33,384 nt of DNA from a virus, in IMG/VR virus record IMGVR_UViG_3300049893_001953, positions 1-33,384 of that record; one strand, given 5' to 3'. A program made the position numbers and the translations under genes. The notes beneath the pieces are model-generated. The model saw nothing but the letters and a program-made list of their open reading frames with translations, ran no database searches and had not been told where the DNA came from. Positions 4,908-32,681 of this stretch are shown here, piece by piece; position 1 is the first letter of the stretch, and each line of letters opens with the position of its first letter.

Positions 4908-5011
4908 GCGGACAAACGTCCGCCTACATTGTAAATCAGATCGACTGCCTTACTTATTATGCGAGGAGAGCTTGTTTCCACGACACCGGGAACGCAAGCT
5001 ATCTTTTGCGT
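4908..5011 (+). promoter_or_regulatory. intergenic segment with two short hairpins before the exonuclease gene
   Basis: The 125-base gap (4897-5021) holds two perfect 6-bp stem-loops. The first is GCGGAC-AAAC-GTCCGC at 4908-4923, just after the upstream stop and without a U-tract. The second is ACGCAA (4992-4997) paired with TTGCGT (5006-5011), ending 10 bases before the ATG of the exonuclease gene, which has no evident Shine-Dalgarno. A weak promoter-like pair (TTGTAA at 4901, TACATT at 4925, spacing 18) overlaps the first hairpin. A role in mRNA processing or translation control is inference. Confidence 0.4.
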
Positions 5012-5021
5012 ATAAGCAAGC

Positions 5022-5771
5022 ATGACCGCACTTCTTCTTGATACCTCTTCCCTAGCCTATCGGGCCGTCCATGCGGTTGGCCCGGACAGGTCTTCTAGGG
5101 TTTTTGTATCAATGATCCAATCCTTGATTGGAACGTATCGACCAGAAGCGATCCTATTTGCAAAAGACTCTAAACGAGAAACTTTAGATCGTACAAAGAT
5201 TCATCAAGAGTACAAGGCAGGGAGGACGCACGACCCGAACATCTCGTTTGGAGTTCGTGAGATCGAACGGGGATTGTCTGAGTGTGGATCTCCAGTTGTC
5301 CAAGTAGAGGGAGCGGAAGCGGACGACGTGCTTGCTTCTGCTGCGGATATTCTTGAGGGTGTTTACGATCTATTGATTATTGTATCAGAGGACAAAGACC
5401 TTTATCAAGCGGTGCGCCCTAACGTTCGCTTGCTGAAGGGCGGGAAGCTTCAGGGAGAGGAAGAGGTGAAGGAGCGTTGGAGTGTCGATGCGAGCCGCGT
5501 GCCTCACGTGCAAGCGTTGTGTGGAGACACTGCCGACAACATCCCCGGGCTCGAAGGAGTGGGCCCGAAGACGGCGGCAAAGCTTATCAACAAATATGGG
5601 TCTGTAGAGCAAGTCTACTCTAATAGGTCCACTTTGACCAAAAGCTTGTCAGCTCAACTGGACACGTTTCCATGGAAGAGAAATCTGAGTCTAACAACCC
5701 TGCGAACAGACCTTGCGCTTCCGATCAAGTTATCGGAACTCGAACGCCCTATAAACTGGAACCGGTTTTAG
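5022..5771 (+). CDS. flap-type 5'-3' exonuclease
   Basis: This 249-residue protein is a compact FEN/5'-3' exonuclease like the N-terminal domain of DNA polymerase I, T5 exonuclease or T4 RNase H. It removes RNA primers or 5' flaps at replication forks. Visible motifs are LLLDTS with Asp7, the YKAGR helical-arch segment (64-68), EGAEADDVLA (97-105), SEDKDLYQ with Asp124 and Asp126, GDTADN with Asp169 and Asp172, and the H3TH helix-hairpin-helix GLEGVGPKTAAKLINKYG. All expected metal-binding acidic residues are present, so it should be active. No polymerase domain is attached. It sits directly upstream of the coat gene, apart from the helicase cluster at the right end. Confidence 0.93.
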   Translation: MTALLLDTSSLAYRAVHAVGPDRSSRVFVSMIQSLIGTYRPEAILFAKDSKRETLDRTKIHQEYKAGRTHDPNISFGVREIERGLSECGSPVVQVEGAEADDVLASAADILEGVYDLLIIVSEDKDLYQAVRPNVRLLKGGKLQGEEEVKERWSVDASRVPHVQALCGDTADNIPGLEGVGPKTAAKLINKYGSVEQVYSNRSTLTKSLSAQLDTFPWKRNLSLTTLRTDLALPIKLSELERPINWNRF

Positions 5772-5959: not shown

Positions 5960-7069
5960 ATGGCAAACTCCCTCGCAGATATAACTCCACTCTTGGTCGC
6001 TAACGCAGTGGCCGTTCTTCGCACGAACTCCGTGCTTCCCCGTTTGGTCAATCGAGACATCGAGGAGACCGCGGCTCAACAAGGTGAGACGATCAACGTC
6101 GGCGTGATGGGATCCTTGGCTGTCACGGATGTGACTCCGAGTGCAACTGTTCCCACTCCACAAAACGTCGTGTTCACTAAGGTCCCTGTTGATCTGGATC
6201 AGTGGAAGAAGGTCGACTTCTCCTTGACTGATAAAGAGATGCACGAGATTGCGGAAGGCAACTTCCCAAGAGTGGCCCAAGAGGCTGTCTCCAAGCTTGC
6301 GAAGTACGTCGATCAGTACCTGCTCGGCATGTACAAGGAGTTCTATGGTGTTGCTGGCACCGCTGGAACAACTCCGTTTGACGACGAGAAGCCGACAGAT
6401 GCGACTCAGCTCCGCAAGGTGCTGAATAACCAACTCTGTCCGTTAGAGAATCGGCATTGTGTGTTCAATGCCGATGCAGAAGCCAACGCGCTCAACGTTC
6501 CTGCATTTGCAAATGCAGAGTGGCACGGCGATCCACAAGCCATCATCGAGGGCAAGCTGAACATGCGTGTCGGCTTCCAGTGGTGGATGGATCAGAATGT
6601 CTTCTATCATACAGCGGGCACGGCTGCTTCGTTTACCGTTACCGCGCTCGAGACAGTCGGTGAGACAGTACTTGGATTGACCGCTGGTACAGGAACGTTC
6701 AACGTTGGCGACATCATAACGTTTGCGAACCACTCGCAAACCTACACGGTCTTGAACTGGTCTTCGCCGAACATCACGATCCGTCCTCCGCTCCAAATGG
6801 CCGTCCCTGCGACCACGGCGGTCGCTGTTACAGCCTCGCATGTCGCCAACATTGGTTTCGCTCCGCAAGCGTTTGCGTTCGCCGTGCGCACGCTACAGTC
6901 CCCACCTGCACAACTTGGCGTCATGTCGTCCACTGCTCTCGATGAAGTATCAGGTTTGGCAATCCGAGTCCAAGTCCGTTACGGACACTTCGAGACTATC
7001 TGGTCCTACGATATCTTGTACGGTGGCGCGGTTGTCCAACCGGAGTGTGGTGCCCGATTGCTCGGCTAA
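5960..7069 (+). CDS. major capsid protein, P22 coat-like HK97 fold
   Basis: The 369-residue product is the probable coat subunit. The N-terminus (MANSLADITPLLVANAVAVLR), the segment PVDLDQWKKVDFSLTDKEMHEIAEG and the long helix following it resemble phage coat proteins of the P22 gp5 family (PF11651), which assemble into the icosahedral shell through the HK97 fold. Residues 223-294 form a beta-rich insertion (GTFNVGDIITF to RPPLQMAVPATTAVAV) where P22-type proteins carry an insertion domain; a related module occurs in the head completion gene at 12102. A strong Shine-Dalgarno (AGAGGT) and a promoter precede it. No scaffold or protease gene lies next to it, so scaffolding is encoded elsewhere or is not recognisable. 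Confidence 0.85.
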   Translation: MANSLADITPLLVANAVAVLRTNSVLPRLVNRDIEETAAQQGETINVGVMGSLAVTDVTPSATVPTPQNVVFTKVPVDLDQWKKVDFSLTDKEMHEIAEGNFPRVAQEAVSKLAKYVDQYLLGMYKEFYGVAGTAGTTPFDDEKPTDATQLRKVLNNQLCPLENRHCVFNADAEANALNVPAFANAEWHGDPQAIIEGKLNMRVGFQWWMDQNVFYHTAGTAASFTVTALETVGETVLGLTAGTGTFNVGDIITFANHSQTYTVLNWSSPNITIRPPLQMAVPATTAVAVTASHVANIGFAPQAFAFAVRTLQSPPAQLGVMSSTALDEVSGLAIRVQVRYGHFETIWSYDILYGGAVVQPECGARLLG

Positions 7070-27503: not shown

Positions 27504-28196
27504 ATGGCAGACAACGATCCATTCTTCTCTTCGACGTACATGACCGAAGCGACCTCGCGTGCAGACTTGATCCATAACGAGTTCGCTGCGAGGGTTGCGG
27601 CTACTCTTGGGGTTCTGAAAGGAGTGGACGTCAACACTCCTCCAGGGTCTCCAGCGGACTTCGATGCCTACATAGTAGGGACAAGCCCAACGGGGCCGTG
27701 GTCTGCGGCGGCGGGGCAGATTGCGTTCTGGCTCAACGGATGGAAGTTCGTCCCTGTCAAAGAGGGCATGAAGCTTCTTGTCGCAGCGGACGTTAGCGGG
27801 CAAGCTGGACGCCACATCGACTACTTTTCGGGAGGGTGGTCCTCTGTCGGAGGTTCGCAGTTTGTGTCGGCTGTGAATCTTTCTGGTGTGTGGACGATCC
27901 AATGGGATCTTAAGTACGGAGTCACGCTCCGCACAACACTCACAAACCCGACAACGGTGATTGAGAAGCCAGCAAATGCGAGGTACGGACGTCCCGTCTA
28001 TGTCGTCGTTCAGCAGGACGCGACCGGAGGACGATTGATTCAGTTTAAGACTGGACAGTGGGTATCGTCGGGAGGTACGTACACACAACCGACCGCTACC
28101 GCAAACGCTCGCACGGCGTACACGGCTATCTGGTATGGACCAAGCGATGTTGGCCCGACAATACTTGGAGCGACGCTCAACCTAATCAATGTCTAG
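27504..28196 (+). CDS. tail fibre-like protein with DUF2793-type domain
   Basis: The 230-residue protein contains the DUF2793 signature: VNTPPGSPADFDAYIVGTSPTGPWSAAAGQIAF split over residues about 43-75, then NGWKFVPVKEGMKLLVAAD and a FSGGWSSVGG strand. This domain is common near tail tips of alphaproteobacterial phages and GTAs and probably contributes to a receptor-binding fibre. The C-terminal part (ARYGRPVYVVVQQDAT to AYTAIWYGPSDVGP) is beta-rich. It is the last late gene; its stop overlaps the convergent queE stop (CTAG at 28193-28196). No Shine-Dalgarno is visible and a hairpin abuts the ATG. Confidence 0.75.
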   Translation: MADNDPFFSSTYMTEATSRADLIHNEFAARVAATLGVLKGVDVNTPPGSPADFDAYIVGTSPTGPWSAAAGQIAFWLNGWKFVPVKEGMKLLVAADVSGQAGRHIDYFSGGWSSVGGSQFVSAVNLSGVWTIQWDLKYGVTLRTTLTNPTTVIEKPANARYGRPVYVVVQQDATGGRLIQFKTGQWVSSGGTYTQPTATANARTAYTAIWYGPSDVGPTILGATLNLINV

Positions 28197-28942
28197 GGCA
28201 AGTTCAGAGTCTTGTGGAGTTGCACGCTTAGGCGATACCCGTAGCGCTCGCACACGGATATCGCAGTTCCAAGGTTGTTAGCCTTGGCAAGCGCGTCGTT
28301 CGTGTCGCAAGGTTGTATCAAGACTTCAGAGTTACGAACCGTCGGCTCTCCGAACTGTTCTGGTCGCGCAACTCGGCATTGATTAGACATCAACGATCGT
28401 TGGGAGTTGCGAATCGGCAAACCGTCCTTGATGCAATTCTTACCGCTCTCGCAGATATACTTGATCGCGTGAATGAATGGTCCGATCCCTGGAGCAATAG
28501 AGGCAGTCTTCGGGCTGCAAACGATTGTGTTGACTGGGCCGTCCGACCCTCGCTTGGCGAAGATGTCTTCTAGGTCCTTTGTCCATACAGTTCCGGCCGT
28601 CTCCACTTGCACGCGCAATCCGGCGTTGTTCAGTGCAAGGACCAGTGGGCGGACGTACTGACGCAAAGGCTCCCCTCCGGTGAGTACGACTAAGGAGATC
28701 CCCGGAGTTGCTTTGCGGATAGAAGTGGTCCGATCAAGAATCTGTTCTACAGTCAATTGATCTTTTACAGTGAAGTCTGTATCGCAAAAGTTGCATTGAA
28801 GGTTGCATCCTGCCAAGCGAATGAATATCGCAGGCATTCCCGTGAGAGGACCTTCGCCTTGGATCGTTGGGAAGATCGAGTGGACTTCAAACGTCGGATG
28901 AGGAGAACGGAGGACAGATGCTTTCTCGTTTGTGCCGAACAT
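28193..28942 (-). CDS. queE: QueE, 7-carboxy-7-deazaguanine synthase
   Basis: The 249-residue radical-SAM enzyme converts 6-carboxytetrahydropterin to 7-carboxy-7-deazaguanine on the route to preQ0. The Cx3Cx2C cluster-binding motif is at Cys46, Cys50 and Cys53 (AGCNLQCNFCDTDF). IFPTIQGEGPLTGMPAIFIRL precedes it, SLVVLTGGEP holds the SAM-binding TGGEP at 88-92, and VCSPK follows. The C-terminus (YGYRLSVQLHKTLNLP) is typical. Length and motifs indicate a complete enzyme. It is transcribed against the late genes, with no clear Shine-Dalgarno upstream and a leader running into the structured region. In phages it usually feeds guanine modification of DNA. Confidence 0.95.
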   Translation of the reverse strand: MFGTNEKASVLRSPHPTFEVHSIFPTIQGEGPLTGMPAIFIRLAGCNLQCNFCDTDFTVKDQLTVEQILDRTTSIRKATPGISLVVLTGGEPLRQYVRPLVLALNNAGLRVQVETAGTVWTKDLEDIFAKRGSDGPVNTIVCSPKTASIAPGIGPFIHAIKYICESGKNCIKDGLPIRNSQRSLMSNQCRVARPEQFGEPTVRNSEVLIQPCDTNDALAKANNLGTAISVCERYGYRLSVQLHKTLNLP

Positions 28943-29142
28943 GGAGGCAATATACGCTCGATTGATTCACAAGCCGTTACGTACGAAAGATCCATTAAAC
29001 AAAGAGGCTTTATTTTAGAATACGGACGCCAACCGCGCTACACAAAACAAAACACTTGCGGCCCATGAAGCCTCTCGCGTACAACAAACAAGCCGAACCG
29101 AAGGCACTCAAACGAGTTTGAAGCAACGGCAGCGGTGGAGCA

Positions 29143-29190
29143 GGAGCCGGTCTACGGGAGTCATCACCCGAAGACTGGCTTCTTTATTTT
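29143..29190 (+). terminator. strong rho-independent terminator
   Basis: Bases 29143-29153 pair with 29172-29182 (11 bp including two G-U pairs). After a single A-A mismatch, CGGG (29155-29158) pairs with CCCG (29167-29170) around the loop AGTCATCA. The stem is followed by TTTATTTT (29183-29190). It is the clearest terminator in the window and reads on the plus strand, yet no plus-strand protein gene ends upstream of it. An untranslated transcript of up to about 180 bases must be considered. Confidence 0.85.
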
Positions 29191-29305
29191 CAGGTGCTGT
29201 ACGCTCCGCGAGGCATCTAAGACATCACTCCTTGAGTTGTTGATGACCAGCTCTTGGGGAACATAGTTTGCGCGGCCTTGTCAGCCTGGTAGAGTCGTCC
29301 GTTTC

Positions 29306-29332
29306 GCTTGCAACGCCCGCGAGGGAGCAAGC
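29306..29332 (+). promoter_or_regulatory. stem-loop with a GCGA (GNRA) tetraloop
   Basis: GCTTGC (29306-29311) pairs with GCAAGC (29327-29332). Inside, CCC (29316-29318) pairs with GGG (29323-29325) around GCGA, a GNRA-class tetraloop that is very stable in RNA. The internal loop is asymmetric (four bases against one). It supports an RNA rather than a DNA function. Confidence 0.55.
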
Positions 29333-29396
29333 AGAAATGAGCAAGACCCGCTCCGCTGGTAGGTCCGGCAACTATCGCCGTCTATCTTCTTCTAGT

Positions 29397-29425
29397 GGGT
29401 CAAGTCCGAGTGGCTTCTTTGACCC
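29397..29425 (+). promoter_or_regulatory. 7-bp stem-loop
   Basis: GGGTCAA (29397-29403) pairs perfectly with TTGACCC (29419-29425) around a 15-base loop. The loop and 3' arm include GGCTTCTTT, also present at two terminators in this window. A further small hairpin, CACACT-CAAC-AGTGTG, lies just downstream at 29436-29451. Confidence 0.5.
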
Positions 29426-29543
29426 CGGGAAGTCCCACACTCAACAGTGTGCACTCGACGTTGGATGCGTGGTGGACGGTTTTGCTCAGCCGTCGAAATG
29501 GTGCGACATCCAACTATGACCGAGGCGACTCAAGTCCTCAGCC

Positions 29544-29564
29544 ATACCCCTTTGTTTGGGGTAT
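29544..29564 (+). terminator. terminator-like hairpin
   Basis: ATACCCC (29544-29550), loop TTTGTTT, GGGGTAT (29558-29564) is a perfect 7-bp stem followed by TTCCC. The U-tract is short, so termination would be partial. A second palindrome, AGCTCTT-C-AAGAGCT, follows at 29572-29586. Confidence 0.5.
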
Positions 29565-29592
29565 TTCCCTCAGCTCTTCAAGAGCTCCGCCT

Positions 29593-29617
29593 CTGGCTTC
29601 TGGCTTCTGGCTTCTGG
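29593..29617 (+). repeat. heptanucleotide tandem repeat (CTGGCTT)
   Basis: Three exact copies of CTGGCTT (29593, 29600, 29607) plus a partial CTGG run directly into the 9-bp stem at 29617-29647. Short direct repeats next to a hairpin and an A/T-rich stem resemble iteron-type binding arrays, but three copies of 7 bases is a small array and replication slippage is an equally simple origin. Confidence 0.7.
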
Positions 29618-29647
29618 TCTCAAGCGCCGAAGGAAAAAGCTTGAGAC
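29617..29647 (+). promoter_or_regulatory. 9-bp stem-loop
   Basis: GTCTCAAGC (29617-29625) pairs perfectly with GCTTGAGAC (29639-29647) around a purine-rich 13-base loop (GCCGAAGGAAAAA). The exposed loop contains an AAGGA-like sequence resembling a Shine-Dalgarno, which could bind ribosomes or an antisense target. Confidence 0.6.
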
Positions 29648-29660
29648 GCTAGTCAGCTTA

Positions 29661-29696
29661 GAGCTTCCTCTTTTGATTTATAAATAAGAGAAGCTC
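29661..29696 (+). promoter_or_regulatory. 11-bp A/T-rich hairpin
   Basis: GAGCTT (29661-29666) pairs with AAGCTC (29691-29696), and after a bulged C, CTCTT (29668-29672) pairs with AAGAG (29686-29690). The loop contains the self-complementary ATTTATAAAT. This is the most A/T-rich spot in the region, a possible DNA unwinding or promoter site. Confidence 0.6.
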
Positions 29697-29724
29697 CTAC
29701 AGTCATCTAAATAAAAATGGGCGA

Positions 29725-29759
29725 TTGGCTTGTCTCTGCTTCTAGCGGACACAAGCCAA
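29725..29759 (+). promoter_or_regulatory. 9-bp stem-loop
   Basis: TTGGCTTGT (29725-29733) pairs perfectly with ACAAGCCAA (29751-29759) across a 17-base loop. It is one of two consecutive 9-bp hairpins separated by 22 bases. Confidence 0.6.
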
Positions 29760-29781
29760 GTCTCGTTATGCCCTCAAGCTT

Positions 29782-29820
29782 GCTGTCGCCGCGTAGCGCG
29801 TCTTTCTTGTGGGCGACAGC
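29782..29820 (+). promoter_or_regulatory. 9-bp stem-loop with internal hairpin
   Basis: GCTGTCGCC (29782-29790) pairs perfectly with GGCGACAGC (29812-29820). The 21-base apical segment holds a small GCG-TAG-CGC hairpin (29791-29799). CAAG at 29775 and CTTG at 29822 can extend the stem beyond a small internal loop. A further GGCT-TGT-AGCC hairpin lies at 29856-29866. Confidence 0.6.
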
Positions 29821-29913
29821 TCTTGGCACCGTGGCCCGTCATGTCCCTGCCTTGTGGCTTGTAGCCTCTCGTTCTTTGTATCTAAGAAAAAGCTGGAGAT
29901 TGCAGTTAGTCCG

Positions 29914-29941
29914 TTCCAAAGAGTATGGATTAGAGTATAAT
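29914..29941 (+). promoter_or_regulatory. probable promoter of the HTH-queD-replication operon
   Basis: A perfect TATAAT lies at 29936-29941. The best -35 candidate is TTCCAA (29914-29919), 16 bases upstream and a poor match, so an activator or a phage sigma factor may be needed. The ATG of the next gene is 8 bases past the -10 box, so transcription would begin at or next to the start codon and the message may be leaderless. Confidence 0.55.
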
Positions 29942-29948
29942 CTTTTGC

Positions 29949-30248
29949 ATGGGAATGCCGTCTGCAAGATCTCCACAAGCGAAGCCGCTTTCTTGCGAGC
30001 AACAGAAGAAAGTTGATCGTCACAACCGCTGGTCTATCCCTGTAGCGGAGGCGAGAGCAAAGCAGCAAGCGGAGCGCGAGCGTAGGAAGAGACGTGCAAC
30101 GAGTCTTTGGATCTCTTTGGACGGTGTCCGCCATACGTTGTCCGATTGGCTCCTTCTGCTTGGGATGTCTCGTGTCGCGTATAACAAGCTCATCTCTAGT
30201 GGTAGGACGCCGGAAGAGGCGCTTCGCCATGGAAGAAAGATGACATGA
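29949..30248 (+). CDS. small HTH-like protein of the replication operon, 99 aa
   Basis: The 99-residue protein has a basic helical N-terminus (residues 15-48, with EARAKQQAERERRKRR) followed by a short domain: ISLDGVRHTLSDWLLLLGM then SRVAYNKLISSGRTPEEALRHGRK. This pattern (a strand, then a helix with W, then a G-I/M-S turn and a recognition helix ending in PEEAL) is common in small phage DNA-binding proteins. It probably regulates early genes or recognises DNA near this locus. The ATG follows a -10 box so closely that the mRNA could be leaderless; a second ATG lies two codons in. The stop overlaps queD (ATGA). Confidence 0.7.
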   Translation: MGMPSARSPQAKPLSCEQQKKVDRHNRWSIPVAEARAKQQAERERRKRRATSLWISLDGVRHTLSDWLLLLGMSRVAYNKLISSGRTPEEALRHGRKMT

Positions 30249-30703
30249 CTACGCTCTACTCCAATCTACCAACCTGCACACGGCGTCTTGAGTTTGATTC
30301 TGGACACCGCGTCCCGGGGCATCGAGGCAAGTGCAAAAACCTTCACGGTCATCGGTATGTTGCCGAGATCACATGTCAAGCGATCGAGGAGCTCCTTCCC
30401 GAAGGCTTTGTCATCGACTTTAGTGTGATCAAACAAAAAGTCGGAACGTGGATCGATGATAACTTAGATCATACAGTGATCTATCAATCGTCAGATTGGT
30501 TCATGCACTCACTTGCATTGCAAGCGAAGGATGAGGGCCATAAGCCATGGTACCCAATGAACGACCCTCCTACCGCGGAGAACATCGCAGTCTTGTTGCA
30601 CGCGACAGCTTGCTCCTTGCTATTAGAGGATTGCGTGCGTGTGACCAGTGTGCGCGTCTGGGAGACGCCGAACTGTTTTGCGCACTATCAGCCCGACGTA
30701 TAA
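30245..30703 (+). CDS. queD: QueD, 6-carboxytetrahydropterin synthase
   Basis: The 152-residue enzyme makes 6-carboxytetrahydropterin from dihydroneopterin triphosphate, the substrate of QueE. Zinc ligands are His21, His34 and His36 (EFDSGHRVPGH and KNLHGHRY), and Cys30 is the catalytic cysteine. GFVIDFSVIK, LDHT and PTAENIA follow in the standard order, and the C-terminus carries the family motif VRVWETPNCFAHY. Nothing essential is missing. It is coupled to the upstream HTH gene by an ATGA overlap and lies 6 bases before the next gene, so it is expressed with replication genes while queE runs the other way. Confidence 0.95.
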   Translation: MTTLYSNLPTCTRRLEFDSGHRVPGHRGKCKNLHGHRYVAEITCQAIEELLPEGFVIDFSVIKQKVGTWIDDNLDHTVIYQSSDWFMHSLALQAKDEGHKPWYPMNDPPTAENIAVLLHATACSLLLEDCVRVTSVRVWETPNCFAHYQPDV

Positions 30704-30709
30704 CGCGAC

Positions 30710-31297
30710 GTGCCAAAGCAGCCGAGGAAGAAGGTTTTGGATCCAGGAGATCTTGTAACAGGTAAGAAGGTCTCGAAAGTTCAAACCCCTGTAGTTCAAG
30801 ATCCAATAGATGAGAGGGTGCTTGTGATCCTTTCTATGATTGATGAGTTGGACAACGTCGGTCTTTTCGAGGTGCTTCGCCACACGGAACGAGCACTTCA
30901 GCCCAAAGCAAAGGCCGCGCTTGCAAGCGAGCCTCTCTGGTATACACACGTCGAATCAACATTATCCAAGACAGGCATCGCCTGTCTGCCATTCGCGGCA
31001 CTAAGTGGGACGTCTGTTTTATCCACTTCTTGGAAAAAGGGATGCCTTGCGTGCCAAGCCTATGTGGATCAGTTAGGCGCGACGTCTCCGGCTGAGGTGT
31101 CCCATGGCCGATCTTTATTGCTCCGTTGCATCTTGTCTTGGATGCAGAAGTGCAACATCCCTATAACGTTCAAGACGTTCACGCAACAAATGAATAACGT
31201 ATCAACTGCAATGGAGTTCTGTTTCCCCGGATACCGTTCCAGCGGGTTACTCTTGGTGCTCTTGAAGCGAAGGAGAGAAGAGCGTGGATCTAAATAG
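30710..31297 (+). CDS. hypothetical protein upstream of the helicase, 195 aa
   Basis: I do not recognise this gene. It starts at GTG 30710, 6 bases after queD, and overlaps the helicase gene by 14 bases. After a basic, probably flexible N-terminus (residues 1-30), the protein is helical (VLVILSMIDELDNVGLFEVLRHTERAL divided into two helices) with a Cys pair (GCLACQAY, residues 104-111) and a basic C-terminus (LLKRRREERGSK). The place directly before a DnaB-type helicase is often taken by a helicase loader or origin-binding protein, but I see no motif to prove that. Confidence 0.65.
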   Translation: MPKQPRKKVLDPGDLVTGKKVSKVQTPVVQDPIDERVLVILSMIDELDNVGLFEVLRHTERALQPKAKAALASEPLWYTHVESTLSKTGIACLPFAALSGTSVLSTSWKKGCLACQAYVDQLGATSPAEVSHGRSLLLRCILSWMQKCNIPITFKTFTQQMNNVSTAMEFCFPGYRSSGLLLVLLKRRREERGSK

Positions 31298-32681
31298 GGG
31301 AATACAAGAGCACTTACTCTCCTTGCTTTGTCACGACCAGGTTCATTGCCGGATTGTGTCCGGGCTCGTTCCAGATCATTATTACAGCAAGTTCTATCGA
31401 GAGGTGTTTATTTGCGCTCGAGACTTCTTGGCTTCGTATGGGAAGCCAATAGGCGAGCACCTGTTTGATGAGATCAACAGGCTCCGAGATCTACATCCAA
31501 AAGACGAAGACATCTACCACCGGATCTACGTTAGTGTTTATCAACTAAAAGATACAACAAACGCAGAGTACACCCTTCGGAGCGCTGGTGACTTTGTTGC
31601 GTATCAAACGACAAAAGCGGCACTCGGCAAGTCGCTAACGGAGTTGGAGGCAGGAACCGCGGAGTCCGTCGCGAAGGTTCACTCCATATGGGGAACGGCA
31701 ATGAAGTCCAGCGCCCAGACCATGGAGACGGGAACGTTCTTGTCGGACAAGAAGTCCTTTCTCAGTTTCTTGGATCAATCCGATCAGCACGTACTTCCGA
31801 CAGGCATCGCGGAGCTGGACGTCCGGGGCATCGGCCCAACAAAGCAAGCGCTCCATCTCACTCTTGCTCTTTACGGACGCGGAAAATCTTGGTGGCTCAT
31901 GCAATGCTTGAAGCACGGCATCTTGAGTCGCCGTCGAGTTCTTTATATCACGCTGGAGATGCCACTCGAGCAGTGCTGCGCACGGTTTGCGAGCTCTTAC
32001 TTTGGATTCGGGAAAGTGGACAAGGTCCATGAGTACTTCACGATCGCAAAGGACGGAGAGGGCAGAGTTGTTGATCTAGAAGCGATGTCCTTGAAAGCTC
32101 CCGGTTACATGAGCGCAGAGGGGGCGCATAAGTTGTCGGAGCTTGCAGACGTGTTCGGACGCAGACCTCCGGCCGTCATCAAAGCGTTCCCTAACGGGAA
32201 GCTGACTATGGATCATCTAAACTCTTACTTGGATATGTTGTCCGCGTTGCACGGTTTTGTTCCAGACATGATCCTTTTGGACTACCTCGCACTCTGCAAG
32301 ATACGAAGTCCAGAAAACAAGCGTGTGGAGCTTGGACAGTTGGCTCTAGATTACAGAGCCATTGCACAAGAGAGAAACCTTGCGGCGGTTACTGTCGGCC
32401 AGCTAAACCGCGGCGCTGGTGAGAACGAGTACGCTACAGGAGACCAGATCGGAGAGTGCTTCGATCTCGCAGCTCATAGCGATTTTATGCAGACGCTGAA
32501 TCAAACTCAAGCAGAGAAGAGCCTTGGACTTCTACGTCTATGGATCGACAAGGCCCGCGAGAAGGCAGACAAGTTTGCACTTCTGTTGTCAACAGACTTT
32601 GCTCGCGGTCAGTTCTGCACAAGCTCTGCATTGATGAGTTCTGCGTATAACGACTTAGTGAAGGGCCTAACCGATGCCTAG
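31284..32681 (+). CDS. DnaB-family replicative DNA helicase
   Basis: The 465-residue protein has an N-terminal helical domain (1-150) like the DnaB primase-interacting region and a RecA-fold core. The Walker A motif is LYGRGKSW (residues 196-203), ITLEMP (222-227) corresponds to the SLEM segment, Walker B is MILLDYLAL with Asp333, and TVGQLNRG (370-377) is the H3/H4-like motif. It would unwind the fork as a hexamer. The start is GTG 31284 with AGGAG 8 bases upstream, within the preceding gene. The stop overlaps the next ATG by 8 bases. Confidence 0.92.
   Translation: MDLNRGIQEHLLSLLCHDQVHCRIVSGLVPDHYYSKFYREVFICARDFLASYGKPIGEHLFDEINRLRDLHPKDEDIYHRIYVSVYQLKDTTNAEYTLRSAGDFVAYQTTKAALGKSLTELEAGTAESVAKVHSIWGTAMKSSAQTMETGTFLSDKKSFLSFLDQSDQHVLPTGIAELDVRGIGPTKQALHLTLALYGRGKSWWLMQCLKHGILSRRRVLYITLEMPLEQCCARFASSYFGFGKVDKVHEYFTIAKDGEGRVVDLEAMSLKAPGYMSAEGAHKLSELADVFGRRPPAVIKAFPNGKLTMDHLNSYLDMLSALHGFVPDMILLDYLALCKIRSPENKRVELGQLALDYRAIAQERNLAAVTVGQLNRGAGENEYATGDQIGECFDLAAHSDFMQTLNQTQAEKSLGLLRLWIDKAREKADKFALLLSTDFARGQFCTSSALMSSAYNDLVKGLTDA

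Follow-up and report, generated by a model that had tools for sequence, protein, structure and literature searches.

A small conserved hairpin within a stem-rich non-coding interval between queE and the queD/replication operon of two related environmental phages

The non-coding interval and its stems

The window analysed here is a stretch of viral DNA of 33,384 bases, IMG/VR record IMGVR_UViG_3300049893_001953, given as one strand from 5' to 3'. It carries a rightward run of head and tail genes, in which the major head protein (5960–7069) and tail proteins are found, followed by a leftward queE, a non-coding interval (28943–29948), and a rightward series formed by a 99-aa ORF, queD, a 195-aa ORF and a DnaB-type helicase. 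The queE-like radical SAM gene (28193–28942, minus strand) matches phrog_2076 (E 5e-44), the queD-like 6-pyruvoyl tetrahydropterin synthase gene (30245–30703, plus strand) matches PF01242 (E 2e-30), and the DnaB-type replicative helicase gene (31284–32681, plus strand) matches phrog_19 (E 1e-43). The 99-aa ORF (29949–30248, plus strand), which is the first gene of the right operon, has a coding score of 0.108 and no family match. The two queuosine-pathway genes queE and queD are on opposite strands, either side of the control region; queC, folE and a transglycosylase did not turn up among the checked proteins of the window or of the relative described below, and the 7-deazaguanine pathway looks incomplete in the sequence covered for both.

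ORFs within the interval have codon scores of −0.035 to −0.004, compared with 0.07–0.24 for real genes of the window, and a Pfam search of these ORFs gave no match. The codon scores and the family searches rule out a protein gene here, in agreement with the first-pass annotation, which had described a stem-rich stretch without a protein gene at a divergent boundary, between queE and the queD/replication operon.

The stems that the annotation had pointed out are present: three perfect 9-bp stems, the bulged stem at 29661–29696 (7+4 bp) and the long imperfect stem at 29143–29190, together with a heptamer tandem repeat, GGCTTCT, at about 29589–29616. The interval contains 6 perfect stems of at least 7 bp against a dinucleotide-shuffle mean of 1.47, and 3 of at least 9 bp against a mean of 0.09, a number reached in 0 of 200 shuffles. 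This excess is confined to 29534–29948, where all three perfect 9-bp stems lie, whereas the part left of 29440 has one perfect stem of at least 7 bp against a mean of 0.80, which is the chance level. Folding of 120-nt windows gives z-scores close to 0 over much of the left part, −2.7 around 29120–29239, and −2.6 to −4.1 across 29540–29839. The proposed excess of stems over chance is thus found in 29534–29948 and in the hairpin at 29143–29192, but not elsewhere in the left part. Stem density in the interval is notable, not extraordinary, because several coding places of the window also reach 3–4 stems of at least 8 bp per kb.

The long imperfect stem (29143–29190) is followed by TTCTTTATTTT; on the plus strand, 29143–29192 folds into a strong terminator-like hairpin (−26.4 kcal/mol, z −6.09) with the U-rich run UUCUUUAUUUU behind it, which looks like a rightward intrinsic terminator and is not conserved in the relative. 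On the right, a bank of four lineage-specific stem-loops (29617–29647, 29661–29696, 29725–29759 and 29782–29820) has no counterpart by alignment in the relative. The latter bank is preceded by a 7-bp hairpin, AUACCCC/GGGGUAU, followed by UUUCCC (29544–29564, plus strand), a possible weak 3' end that is not conserved either.

Comparison with a related phage

Searches with queE, queD, DnaB and a tail protein revealed one close relative in IMG/VR, IMGVR_UViG_3300049491_000624 (51,380 bases), which aligns collinearly over most of the window with 65–73% nucleotide identity, rising to 80% in one short segment. Amino acid identities are 86% for DnaB, 74% for queE and 61% for the 195-aa protein. IMG/VR (DnaB, queE, queD, tail protein), phage GenBank records and bacterial genomes (DnaB) yielded no second close relative. 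Coordinates in the relative refer to its locus L006, which was used to compare the intervals, unless another locus is named. The first gene of the right operon has apparently been swapped, as the 99-aa (window 29949–30248) and 103-aa (L006 4629–4940) products have no evident similarity when their translations are inspected. The relative also contains another region, about 4 kb long, in which all ORFs are short (L100 17975–20000 and L101 1–1970), several of them opposite in strand to the head and tail genes; it is unmatched in the window fragment.

At the same place between queE and the replication operon, the relative has an interval of 746 nt that is also non-coding. The genes on either side share 68–73% nucleotide identity between the phages, whereas only one 88-nt block out of about 1000 nt can be aligned within the interval. 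This block (29446–29533, plus strand) comprises a hairpin, its 5' flank and a 3' tail, UGACCGARGCGAYU, and aligns to L006 4312–4397 with 72% identity (E 2e-9; global alignment z 9.35). By contrast, a piecewise global alignment gave z-values of −0.75 to +0.45 for all flanks, no better than shuffles. Because only 29446–29533 aligns and the ORF that follows differs too, the interval, as read from the two genomes, is one that turns over quickly while a single block is held.

The first-pass annotation had argued that a conserved non-coding kilobase implies function. The 88-nt block is the sole part of the interval that can be aligned to the only relative, and the argument fails because the listed stems are not conserved, none of them aligning to the relative. 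The block itself was absent from the list. Compensatory change is lacking in the stems that had been listed and is seen in the unlisted hairpin at 29460–29514, so that the expectation of a real structured RNA in the interval stands, while the stems put forward for it do not.

These results bear directly on the proposal that the whole kilobase constitutes either a single large, ornate RNA or several functional small RNAs in a cluster. The excess of perfect stems in 29534–29948 and the strong terminator-like hairpin at 29143–29192 agree with it, as does the presence in the relative of one 9-bp stem and a window at z −3.1 near the same end. However, no listed stem aligns to the relative, though the flanking genes align at about 70%. 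The interval resembles GOLLD and ROOL, which are giant phage or prophage RNAs, in being long, non-coding, stem-rich and located in a phage, but it differs from them in lacking an Rfam match, tRNA neighbours and conservation along its length; the conservation along most of a long RNA that is typical of that type is not seen, as only 88 of about 1000 nt align. RNAs of the GOLLD and ROOL type, if present, would be expected to match Rfam, and their Rfam models gave no match. Searches of the window and the relative with the Rfam 15 covariance models at gathering score gave no match either, only chance-level matches being obtained (E 2–2.6), and ARAGORN found no tRNA or tmRNA. We consider the ornate RNA or RNA cluster very unlikely. 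As judged from the two genomes, the interval holds one small conserved RNA element, not a kilobase-long RNA machine.

The conserved hairpin

The conserved hairpin (29460–29514, plus strand) has 55 nt in the window and 52 nt in the relative, with 19 consensus pairs. It is formed by an outer 8-bp arm, P1 (29460–29467/29507–29514), a segment of mostly wobble pairs, P1b (29469–29473/29500–29504), and P2 (29475–29480/29489–29494), whose terminal loop contains UGCUC; an asymmetric internal loop holds AAAU. Between the two sequences, 5 of the 19 pairs changed on both sides yet remained paired, 1 changed on one side and 1 is broken, with 97% of cells paired. Controls with slid partners have 28–50% of cells paired and no double change, and 20 of 500 shuffles reach the observed covariation, a control that is weak with two rows. 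Three of the double changes are found in the outer arm, whose two strands are GTTGGATG/CATCCAAC in the window, against CACGGATG/CATCCGTG in the relative; the others are G-C to U-A in P1b and A-U to U-G in P2. On this two-genome comparison, the pairing of 29460–29514 is kept by compensatory change while its surroundings have diverged.

The folding energy of the hairpin is −22.8 kcal/mol in the window (z −2.97) and −19.4 kcal/mol in the relative (z −3.26), and the minimum-energy fold of the latter is exactly the hairpin structure. On the opposite strand the window copy folds less well (−16.0 kcal/mol), whereas in the relative the two strands are nearly equal (−18.9 kcal/mol for the other). Three U-G/G-U wobble pairs are invariant and each genome has an additional one in P2. 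Since the opposite strand would have A-C mismatches in their place, they argue for a hairpin read from the plus strand.

A possible second small hairpin, GAC/GUC, which the tail may enter, folds at 29524–29541 (plus strand); it is tentative, weakly formed in the window and distinct in the relative. Its counterpart there is AAGCGAUU-GAAA-AGUCGUUU (L006 4387–4406), followed by U-rich sequence, with a 3' strand of uncertain homology to the window. Small hairpins lie directly downstream of the block in both phages, that of the window without a good U tract. The block tail, TGACCGAGGCGAC (29515–29530), recurs with one change as TGACCGAAGCGAC in the 230-aa tail gene (27539–27552) of the window, and this recurrence is absent from the relative there.

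A covariance model of the hairpin, searched against 82 loci and 9 whole records, matched in the two phages only. Besides the known relative, an IMG/VR motif search with two DNA patterns retrieved L077 and L078 with the first and 13 others with the second, all of which were set aside as chance because they lie in or resemble coding sequence and have no paired arms. An integron attC site was also considered and rejected, as the arms (GTTRRRY...RYYYAAC) are in the wrong order and the relative breaks the pattern. In a search of the two phage genomes for antisense targets, no position common to both was found at which the same part of the hairpin could pair.

Conservation of the block could instead reflect a peptide, as a remnant of a protein-coding stretch, and the tail can indeed be read as ATGACCGAGGCG (MTEA) in the window and as TTGACCGAAGCG in the relative. 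However, the reading frames downstream of the MTEA stretch share nothing between the phages, there is no ribosome-binding site, the overlapping ORFs have negative codon scores, and the double changes fit pairing instead. A coding origin of the block is therefore most improbable.

The block could also be a DNA element, namely an inverted repeat that serves in replication initiation or to which a regulator of the two divergent operons binds. Its position between divergent promoters, beside the replication genes, and the preservation of an 8-bp inverted repeat are consistent with such a site. Three of the 8 arm pairs, however, change sequence and still pair, which is unusual for a protein-bound DNA site, and the conserved wobble pairs and the internal loop favour a folded single strand. 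A replication origin had been among the options of the first-pass annotation; the GC skew, which it had proposed as a check, is flat with no switch, and no iterons were found. We regard a DNA element as unlikely.

Flanking starts and the possible role of the hairpin

At the edges of the interval, a −10-like TATAAT (29936–29941, plus strand) lies 7 nt before the ATG of the 99-aa ORF, and a −10-like TATATT (28949–28954, minus strand) lies 6 nt before the ATG of queE, both without a Shine-Dalgarno sequence. The relative has TATAAG 5 nt before the GTG at L006 4629 and TATGAT 5 nt before the GTG of queE. All four flanking genes of the two phages therefore have a hexamer with at least 5 of 6 matches, 5–7 nt before the start codon, and no Shine-Dalgarno, an arrangement with a chance of 1.3% per site that was recognised after the fact and not predicted. 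The two queE genes are orthologous and are not fully independent cases, whereas the right-hand genes are not evidently related. A TANNNT-type hexamer beside the start codon in the absence of a Shine-Dalgarno characterizes leaderless genes in Deinococcus-Thermus and other bacteria (PMC12340547, PMC3160421). Both flanking genes of the window and queE of the relative conform to this pattern, and TATAAG of the relative departs from it at the final T. The interval shares with leaderless divergent regions the −10-like hexamer 5–7 nt upstream of its flanking genes and the lack of a Shine-Dalgarno; it differs in that the leaderless reading is drawn from the sequence. The layout may hint at the host group. 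In the window, TATAAG/TATAAC is also found 5 nt before an exonuclease-like gene (5022) and the 195-aa ORF (30710), with no Shine-Dalgarno (5010–5022 and 30698–30710), the TATAAC-type site of the latter overlapping the end of queD; this phage may make wider use of leaderless-type starts.

Given these hexamers at the start codons and the lack of Shine-Dalgarno sequences, the interval is probably not the 5' UTR of either flanking gene. If neither flanking mRNA has a leader here, the hairpin would belong to another transcript.

HK022 put RNAs act in cis on the polymerase, suppressing termination through the zinc-binding domain of the RNA polymerase β' subunit. The hairpin could analogously be a cis element in a nascent rightward transcript into the replication operon, either for processive antitermination or as a regulator in a queD leader. 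It lies upstream of the hairpin bank and of the operon with the queD and helicase genes, and together with the possible second small hairpin it is comparable in size to the put RNAs, which have about 70 nt and two stem-loops and follow early promoters, at about 270 nt in the case of putR (PMC9378689). The block is likewise phage-encoded, of about 70–95 nt, hairpin-based and placed in a control region before early or replication-type genes, a resemblance in general layout. By contrast with put, only one hairpin is firmly supported, the second being weak in the window, and the leaderless-type promoter is apparently downstream of the hairpin: in both phages the first gene carries a TATAAT-type hexamer, which suggests that transcription starts there. 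Moreover, the spacing between the hairpin and this gene differs between the phages (about 430 and 250 nt), and the downstream stems are mostly without U tracts. As to a queD leader, the hairpin shares with preQ1 riboswitches its location near queE and queD, but it is plain and bulged, lacks their short pseudoknot fold and is not directly before the queD start. Rfam models of preQ1 riboswitch types I, II and III gave no match in the queD leader (E up to 5), and no other riboswitch family matched. A cis-acting role is possible, if doubtful.

We tentatively prefer a different explanation, which is plausible without being firmly established, namely that the kilobase serves as the control region of the divergent genes and carries a small structured RNA, which is most likely transcribed rightward as a short RNA separate from the flanking mRNAs. 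The leftward queE and the rightward queD/replication operon would be transcribed leaderless from the edges of the interval, and the hairpin would form part of a separate plus-strand RNA of roughly 90–125 nt that ends at the small downstream hairpin. Such an RNA could work through the conserved UGCUC loop, the AAAU internal loop and the UGACCGA tail, and bind a protein or RNA partner; alternatives to a free small RNA would be action in cis on the polymerase or as single-stranded DNA. The other stems would be terminators or spacer sequence particular to each lineage and would not together form one machine. The double changes and the alignment of the block against dissimilar flanks, both from two genomes, are consistent with this small RNA; no convincing promoter for a separate hairpin transcript was found in the sequence.

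Stem excess alone is a poor guide to function here, the strongest stems being unconserved and the conserved one having gone unnoticed. The comparison separates a testable 55-nt RNA element from a kilobase of eye-catching stems that are not kept. That the hairpin, seen in two related environmental phages, represents a new class of phage regulatory RNA acting on RNA polymerase or a host protein, and is the only constrained part of the region, is distinctly unlikely as a specific proposal; should it act on transcription or on a host protein, the few phage RNAs of this sort would gain a new member.
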